Positions 22,376 to 62,664 of a DNA stretch of 64,000 bases are shown piece by piece. The notes beneath the pieces are model-generated. The model ran no database searches. It worked only from the letters and a program-made list of their open reading frames with translations, and had not been told where the DNA came from. How positions within the stretch are numbered: the stretch's first letter is position 1; the number at the start of each line of letters is the position of its first letter. Made by a program: the position numbers and the translations under genes. The stretch is from the NCBI GenBank assembly GCA_009760855.2, contig WPIO01000001.1:10244501-10308500 (forward strand). Reading direction: 5' to 3'. The stretch is from Cristatella mucedo (lineage: Eukaryota > Bryozoa > Phylactolaemata > Cristatellidae).

Positions 22376-22558
22376 TCACTGGCTTCTATCGTCTGAGCTT
22401 TTGATTACCCTGGGCTCTATTCGCAACGAGGCGGCGTAACTCTGGTCGTCCGTTAGTAGGGTGCTCGTATCCAGCAGGTAGTCCGTAACTTCAGGCTTGT
22501 GCTGTATTCGGTATATCTGCTGCTGAAACTGCTGTATTTCTCCAATCACGTGAGATAT
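22376..22558 (-). CDS. RasGRF last exon (C-terminal end of Cdc25 domain)
   Basis: It starts after CTTTTGCAG in phase 0 with [20 protein letters not shown] and ends [17 protein letters not shown] plus TGA at 22378-22376. ISH.I.EI.QFQQ and SLRIEP are the family's conserved C-terminus. Confidence 0.95.
   Translation of the reverse strand: MSHVIGEIQQFQQQIYRIQHKPEVTDYLLDTSTLLTDDQSYAASLRIEPRVIKSSDDRSQ

Positions 22559-62664: not shown

Follow-up and report, generated by a model that had tools for sequence, protein, structure and literature searches.

An apparently intact RasGRF gene with long introns in the bryozoan Cristatella mucedo

The stretch of Cristatella mucedo DNA analyzed here, referred to as the window, comprises 64,000 nucleotides (C111:10244501-10308500) of an assembly of 572,011,866 bases. 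On its minus strand, the window contains collinear exons with open frames and splice-site boundaries, which encode a Ras exchange factor of the RasGRF type. These exons belong to a gene of about 19 exons that spans 80 kb on the minus strand (C111:10266876-10347017), with the start ATG, itself preceded by an in-frame stop codon, at C111:10347017, that is, 38.5 kb outside the window, and the stop at window position 22376. The nine-exon gene of a preliminary description of this DNA is the 3' (second) half of the RasGRF gene, and the first half is located just outside the window. In the spliced model, the domain order is PH1, IQ-like, DH, PH2-like, REM, and Cdc25.

The window exons were placed independently, using minus-strand open frames, Pfam searches of ten ORFs, and the alignment of a human RASGRF1 sequence. 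Between positions 62758 and 22376, eight exons are supported by homology, all on the minus strand and in gene order. Exon 12 (62547..62758; in-phase 1, out-phase 0), detected by tblastn with human RASGRF1, encodes the end of the second PH domain. Two acceptors were scored for this exon, 62758 (phase 1; 7.1) and 62664 (phase 2; 6.0); because exon 11 ends in phase 1, which an in-phase of 2 would not fit, exon 12 probably starts at 62758. Exon 13 (48878..49275; donor phase 2) encodes the N-terminal part of REM followed by a low-complexity linker; its ORF matches Pfam RasGEF_N with E=3.7e-12, and the whole-genome Pfam scan found this REM exon at C111:10293593-10293778. The start of exon 13 is ambiguous among the acceptors 49275 (phase 0, 8.1), 49289 (phase 1, 7.0), and 49295 (phase 1, 8.2). 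The C-terminal part of REM is in exon 14 (29536..29652; donor phase 0), the acceptor of which is uncertain, with 29745, 29672, 29652, 29644, and 29634 among those scored. The REM domain is split such that positions 1-62 of the RasGEF_N profile are in exon 13 (44.7 bits, above the cut-off), and positions 65-100 are in exon 14 (17.8 bits, below the cut-off of 28.3). Exon 15 (29094..29392; out-phase 2) contains the end of REM and the start of Cdc25, which continues through exon 16 (28708..28792; 85 nt, out-phase 0), exon 17 with the Cdc25 core (27617..27894; out-phase 2; Pfam RasGEF E=1.5e-29), and exon 18 (26912..27029; out-phase 0), the ORF of which matches Pfam RasGEF with E=8.7e-11. Exon 19 (22376..22558) encodes the C-terminal end of Cdc25 and the stop codon (22376-22378), and an AATAAA is found at 22137, about 240 nt downstream. 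The preliminary description had put the gene at 22376..62664; the first boundary coincides with the final base of the stop codon, and 62664 does follow an AG, but the exon probably starts at 62758. Its count of four exons under 120 nt holds (118, 117, 85, and 118 nt), provided that the first exon starts at 62664 and the exon with the C-terminal part of REM at 29652.

The upstream half was obtained by running a spliced aligner over 200 kb fetched upstream of the window, and the positions are given in the coordinates of the extended window, all on the minus strand. Exons 1-2 (102517-102263 and 90463-90354) encode PH1, exons 3-4 (84642-84495 and 83792-83715) the presumed coiled-coil region, exon 5 (81854-81601) the IQ-like motif and DH, exons 6-9 (81377-81298, 75056-74863, 73136-73026, and 68678-68561) the region from DH to the PH2-like domain, and exons 10-11 (65455-65289 and 65075-64997) the PH2-like domain. 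PH1 was recognized at residues 23-121 (PF00169, E=6.4e-10), and DH in the spliced protein (PF00621, RhoGEF, E=3.4e-37), with one DH exon found independently by the Pfam genome scan (C111:10319360-10319560, E=4.9e-7). The PH2-like domain behind DH aligns to the human PH2 and matches the SOS1/NGEF-like PH profile PF22697 with 24.4 bits, under the cut-off of 27.7. For IQ, the PF00612 score of 16.2 bits is under the cut-off of 20.3, and the sequence VQSFFRGWLCR fits the IQ consensus [FILV]Q...[RK]G...[RK]. Exon 3 aligns to the region of human RASGRF1 between PH1 and IQ, where RasGRF proteins have a coiled coil. Taken singly, exons 2, 4, and 11 show weak similarity to the human protein, with scores of 31-38, close to the highest null score (33.5). 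Three edges of the model were moved by hand (29672 to 29652, 84486 to 84495, and 62664 to 62758), and exon 1 was likewise given its ATG end manually. Further exons proposed by the aligner, at 64937, 53107, 50371, 47805, 42824, 38211, and 36661, were regarded as padding imposed by the probe and omitted from the model. A run of exactly 5,000 N, which is a gap or a withheld stretch, begins 0.5 kb before the first coding exon (C111:10347501-10352500; extended 103001-108000), so that the promoter and any exons of the 5' UTR may be hidden.

The identity of the gene was assessed using PDB sequences, which provide evidence independent of the human probe. Spliced exons 14-19 align to mouse RasGRF1 (PDB 2ije) without gaps over 234 residues and across four splice joins, with 118/234 identical residues and 272 bits. 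The Cdc25 scores of other families among the PDB sequences are 131 bits for SOS1, 113 for RalGPS1, and 72 for RasGRP1, and exon 17 alone yields 105 bits with 2ije, compared to 41 for the next PDB sequence. The Cdc25 domains of RasGRF1 and SOS are given as 30% identical (PMC8623491), so that the 50% identity observed here is well on the RasGRF side. In the Pfam analysis of the spliced model, RasGEF was found in exons 14-19 (1.2e-58), and RasGEF_N (1.7e-11) was found in the first 13 exons together with the RhoGEF and PH domains. That another member of the RasGEF family (SOS, RasGRP, RalGPS, or RapGEF) was mistaken for RasGRF is highly improbable: Cdc25 is common to all these families and REM to several of them, and there are further RasGEF loci in this genome (21 RasGEF matches in all), but RasGRF1 scores twice as high as any other family in PDB, an extra PH domain precedes the IQ-like motif and DH, and REM is interrupted by a long linker, which is a RasGRF trait. 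The part containing IQ, DH, and PH2 matches DH proteins in PDB, with a best score of 74.6 bits; none of the 55 matches listed is named RasGRF.

The spliced alignment of RASGRF1 to the window, a check that had been proposed for the preliminary description, was performed with the human protein and an aligner written for this analysis, with preset splice-site frequencies and only GT/GC...AG introns allowed. The part of the gene in the window scored 881.3, compared to 45.0-72.2 in 13 null runs (the opposite strand, five first-order Markov sequences, four shuffled probes, one reversed probe, and two other 42-kb stretches). Together with the homology and the twofold difference between the RasGRF1 and SOS scores, this result bears out the claim of a RasGRF gene on the minus strand. 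The long introns with repeats, the one missing segment, and the weakness of some exons might suggest a pseudogene in decay or a chance succession of exons from different genes. Codon usage is flat in exons 11, 12, and 14 (-0.11, 0.04, and 0.03 bits per codon), despite their inclusion in the training set. However, the 19 exons follow in order with no internal frame break, the donors and acceptors of the model rank in the 84th-100th percentile when compared to every GT/GC and AG of the region, and the null scores are at least 12 times lower, so that such an explanation has very little probability. The genome search with exon 17 (E <= 0.001) found two places, the locus itself and one at 30% identity, indicating that there is no competing close copy. 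The shared strand, the right order, and the open frames of the exons, with no close copy of exon 17, argue against their placement in separate genes or pseudogenes, an outcome named beforehand as contrary to a single gene. Scans for exon 17 yielded 16 pattern matches in viral contigs and 81 in genome contigs, none of which was confirmed. The best explanation is therefore an animal RasGRF gene that appears to be intact, with long introns and no close second copy, and we assign it a probability of about 0.96.

Consistent phases had been offered as an argument for this gene, namely, 0/2/0/0/2/0/2/0 at eight junctions, with GT-AG at every intron, considered unlikely by chance. The model exons give 0, 2, (linker), 0, 2, 0, 2, 0, with the first match (junction 12-13) being one of several options given that exon 13 has three acceptors in two phases, and GT-AG is indeed seen at every intron, a regularity that is partly built into the aligner. 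At each of the 18 junctions, 10-91 pairs of donors and acceptors are available no farther than 30 nt from the edges, and 3-30 of these pairs agree in phase. By itself, the argument from phases is weak, because every junction leaves a choice among several phase-matching GT/AG pairs, and the case for RasGRF is carried by homology. When the best-scoring donor and acceptor were chosen regardless of phase, 15 of the 18 junctions agreed versus 6 expected, a result that is partly circular, the search being centered on the model sites, and hence supportive rather than a clean test. The phases disagreed at junctions 12-13, 13-14, and 15-16; the model does not treat 13-14 as a real junction, since linker exons may intervene.

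The preliminary description had listed the PH end, REM, a linker, and the whole of Cdc25; all of these were recovered with homology support except for the linker exon, the ninth, which is putative. An open frame at 47596..47945 (minus strand) is a possible linker exon and perhaps the ninth one, although no exon coordinates had been given, and its location near 47.6-47.9 kb is a guess. This frame is among the best 25 in the codon-usage ranking only with an out-phase of 1, not with the phases 2 to 0 that are needed, and about a third of the region 47560-47960 is a trinucleotide repeat with at least 122 further matches in the genome. The codon-usage ranking yielded no convincing linker exon. A splice-bounded open frame at 36661-36576 (minus strand) resembles the human linker motif SAASAFAIATAGA and ranks no better than the others; it is a possible candidate for a linker exon. 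Alternatively, a manual count of the frame indicates that exons 13 and 14 could be joined in frame with nothing between them, via the weak acceptor 29644 (2.2).

A second segment concerns the region between PH2 and REM, where human RASGRF1 and RASGRF2 carry about 53 residues. This connector was not found in the 13.3-kb intron 12 in three scans. In the ungapped profile scan, the best score on the true strand was 34.0, compared to 33.5-34.5 for the other strand and other stretches; in the gapped scan of splice-bounded ORFs, the best score, also 34.0, came from a LINE tail at 53 kb, with 23.0-33.5 in six null stretches; in the phase-sorted scan, the best score was 24.0 when this LINE tail was left aside. 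Both loss and divergence of the connector are possible, because the accepted exons 2, 4, and 11 are themselves only weakly similar. A real but structurally altered RasGRF, in which the connector was lost and the linker within REM was reduced to low-complexity sequence, would account for the absence of a detectable connector in the intron and for the in-frame joining of exons 12 and 13 at acceptor 49275. Nevertheless, this possibility appears doubtful: the good acceptors 49295 and 49289 are in phase 1 and would require a further exon, exons 2 and 4 are examples of how divergence can conceal an exon, and two frames in intron 12, 56943-56781 (phase 0 to 1) and 50514-50312 (1 to 0), can be linked in phase to exon 13 at 49275. 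Both frames have very strong splice sites and neither is RasGRF-like; such strong splice-bounded frames are otherwise rare, with 2 found when about 344 kb of strand outside intron 12 were searched. As a connector exon, 56943-56781 was rejected, being a dispersed repeat with 82-84% copies in L033 and a 75% copy at extended 231 kb. The other frame, 50312-50514 on the minus strand (phase 1 to 0; with 50474 as its edge, 2 to 0), is located just upstream of the REM exon and contains a 40-base tandem repeat. The broader proposal that RasGRF of this lineage lost the vertebrate-conserved connector, with low-complexity sequence replacing the long regulatory linker and DH-PH2 coupled directly to REM-Cdc25, is unlikely. 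The apparently intact RasGRF gene is real, was correctly recognized, and is ordinary, a new member of a well-known family in which any novelty would amount, at most, to the missing connector.

Transposon debris had been reported for this region; among the ten long ORFs through which the introns were sampled, one encodes a LINE-like reverse transcriptase (23776..25683; Pfam RVT_1 E=9.8e-33), which is in the last intron on the same strand as the gene. The frame 56943-56781 is inside a GC-rich dispersed repeat (56600-57802) that includes a 215-aa open frame and adjoins 163/122-base tandem repeats. An imperfect (TC)n tract of 450 bases (34845-35294) within the gene produces long low-complexity open frames on both strands. 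On the plus strand, an ORF of 293 aa with an RNA recognition motif (14772-15653; Pfam RRM_1 E=1.3e-19) probably represents a further gene or exon on the downstream side of RasGRF. The Rfam search of the window yielded nothing at gathering scores.

Several observations were made on mitochondrial sequences of the same assembly. Contig C688 (L034/L035; 21,008 bases) is the mitochondrial contig and has three copies of the same open-frame stretches of about 1.5 kb (near 2.5-4.0, 11.0-12.5, and 13.1-14.6 kb), with the copy near 2.5-4.0 kb inverted relative to the other two. It reads under the invertebrate code: at COX1 sites judged to be conserved, AGR stands for Ser and AAA for Lys. One strand carries nad1-nad6-cob-nad4L-nad4-nad5 (genes named by eye), and Lys-Ala-Asn tRNAs adjoin cox3, according to the permissive mitochondrial mode of ARAGORN, in which some of the 40 predictions are certainly false. 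Molluscs and related lophotrochozoans have this gene order. Partial COX1 matches outside this contig, in L032 and L033 (C166 and C83; 250.7 and 111.7 bits), are possibly nuclear copies of mitochondrial DNA.

With the IQ-like and PH2-like parts taken as IQ and PH2, the domain order of the encoded protein is that of vertebrate RASGRF1 and RASGRF2, and a linker interrupts REM, as in these proteins. Unlike in RASGRF1 and RASGRF2, the PH2-REM connector was not found, the linker is of low complexity (Ala/Pro/Gly) and not alignable, and the PH2-like domain contains an insert if exon 12 starts at 62758. Mammals have two RasGRF genes, whereas no close second gene was found here. The DH-PH-REM-Cdc25 core is shared with SOS1 and SOS2, which differ in having a histone-like fold and in lacking the N-terminal PH plus IQ; RasGRP shares REM-Cdc25, but has EF hands and C1 in place of DH-PH. 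Besides the REM-Cdc25 core, the RasGRF proteins are described as having a coiled coil, two PH domains, and an IQ domain that binds calmodulin, with PH1 aiding membrane localization and DH-PH showing exchange activity toward Rac (PMC3762125). Given the similar domains, the same activities may be expected: PH1 would help to bring the protein to the membrane, calcium/calmodulin would regulate it through the IQ motif, and, as in mammalian RasGRF1/2, the Cdc25 domain would catalyze the replacement of GDP by GTP on Ras, and Rac would be the target of DH-PH2. Neural expression, as in mammals, would be a guess.

Among the titles listed in the literature search, none dealt with the gene structure of an invertebrate RasGRF, which is no proof of absence. 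The 40-kb stretch that resembled debris lies within one conserved signaling gene, for which a near-complete model is now available, and the large repeat-bearing introns of such a long gene could easily fragment an automatic annotation. By itself, the locus yields no new biology; it is useful for annotating this genome and for tracing RasGRF in invertebrates.
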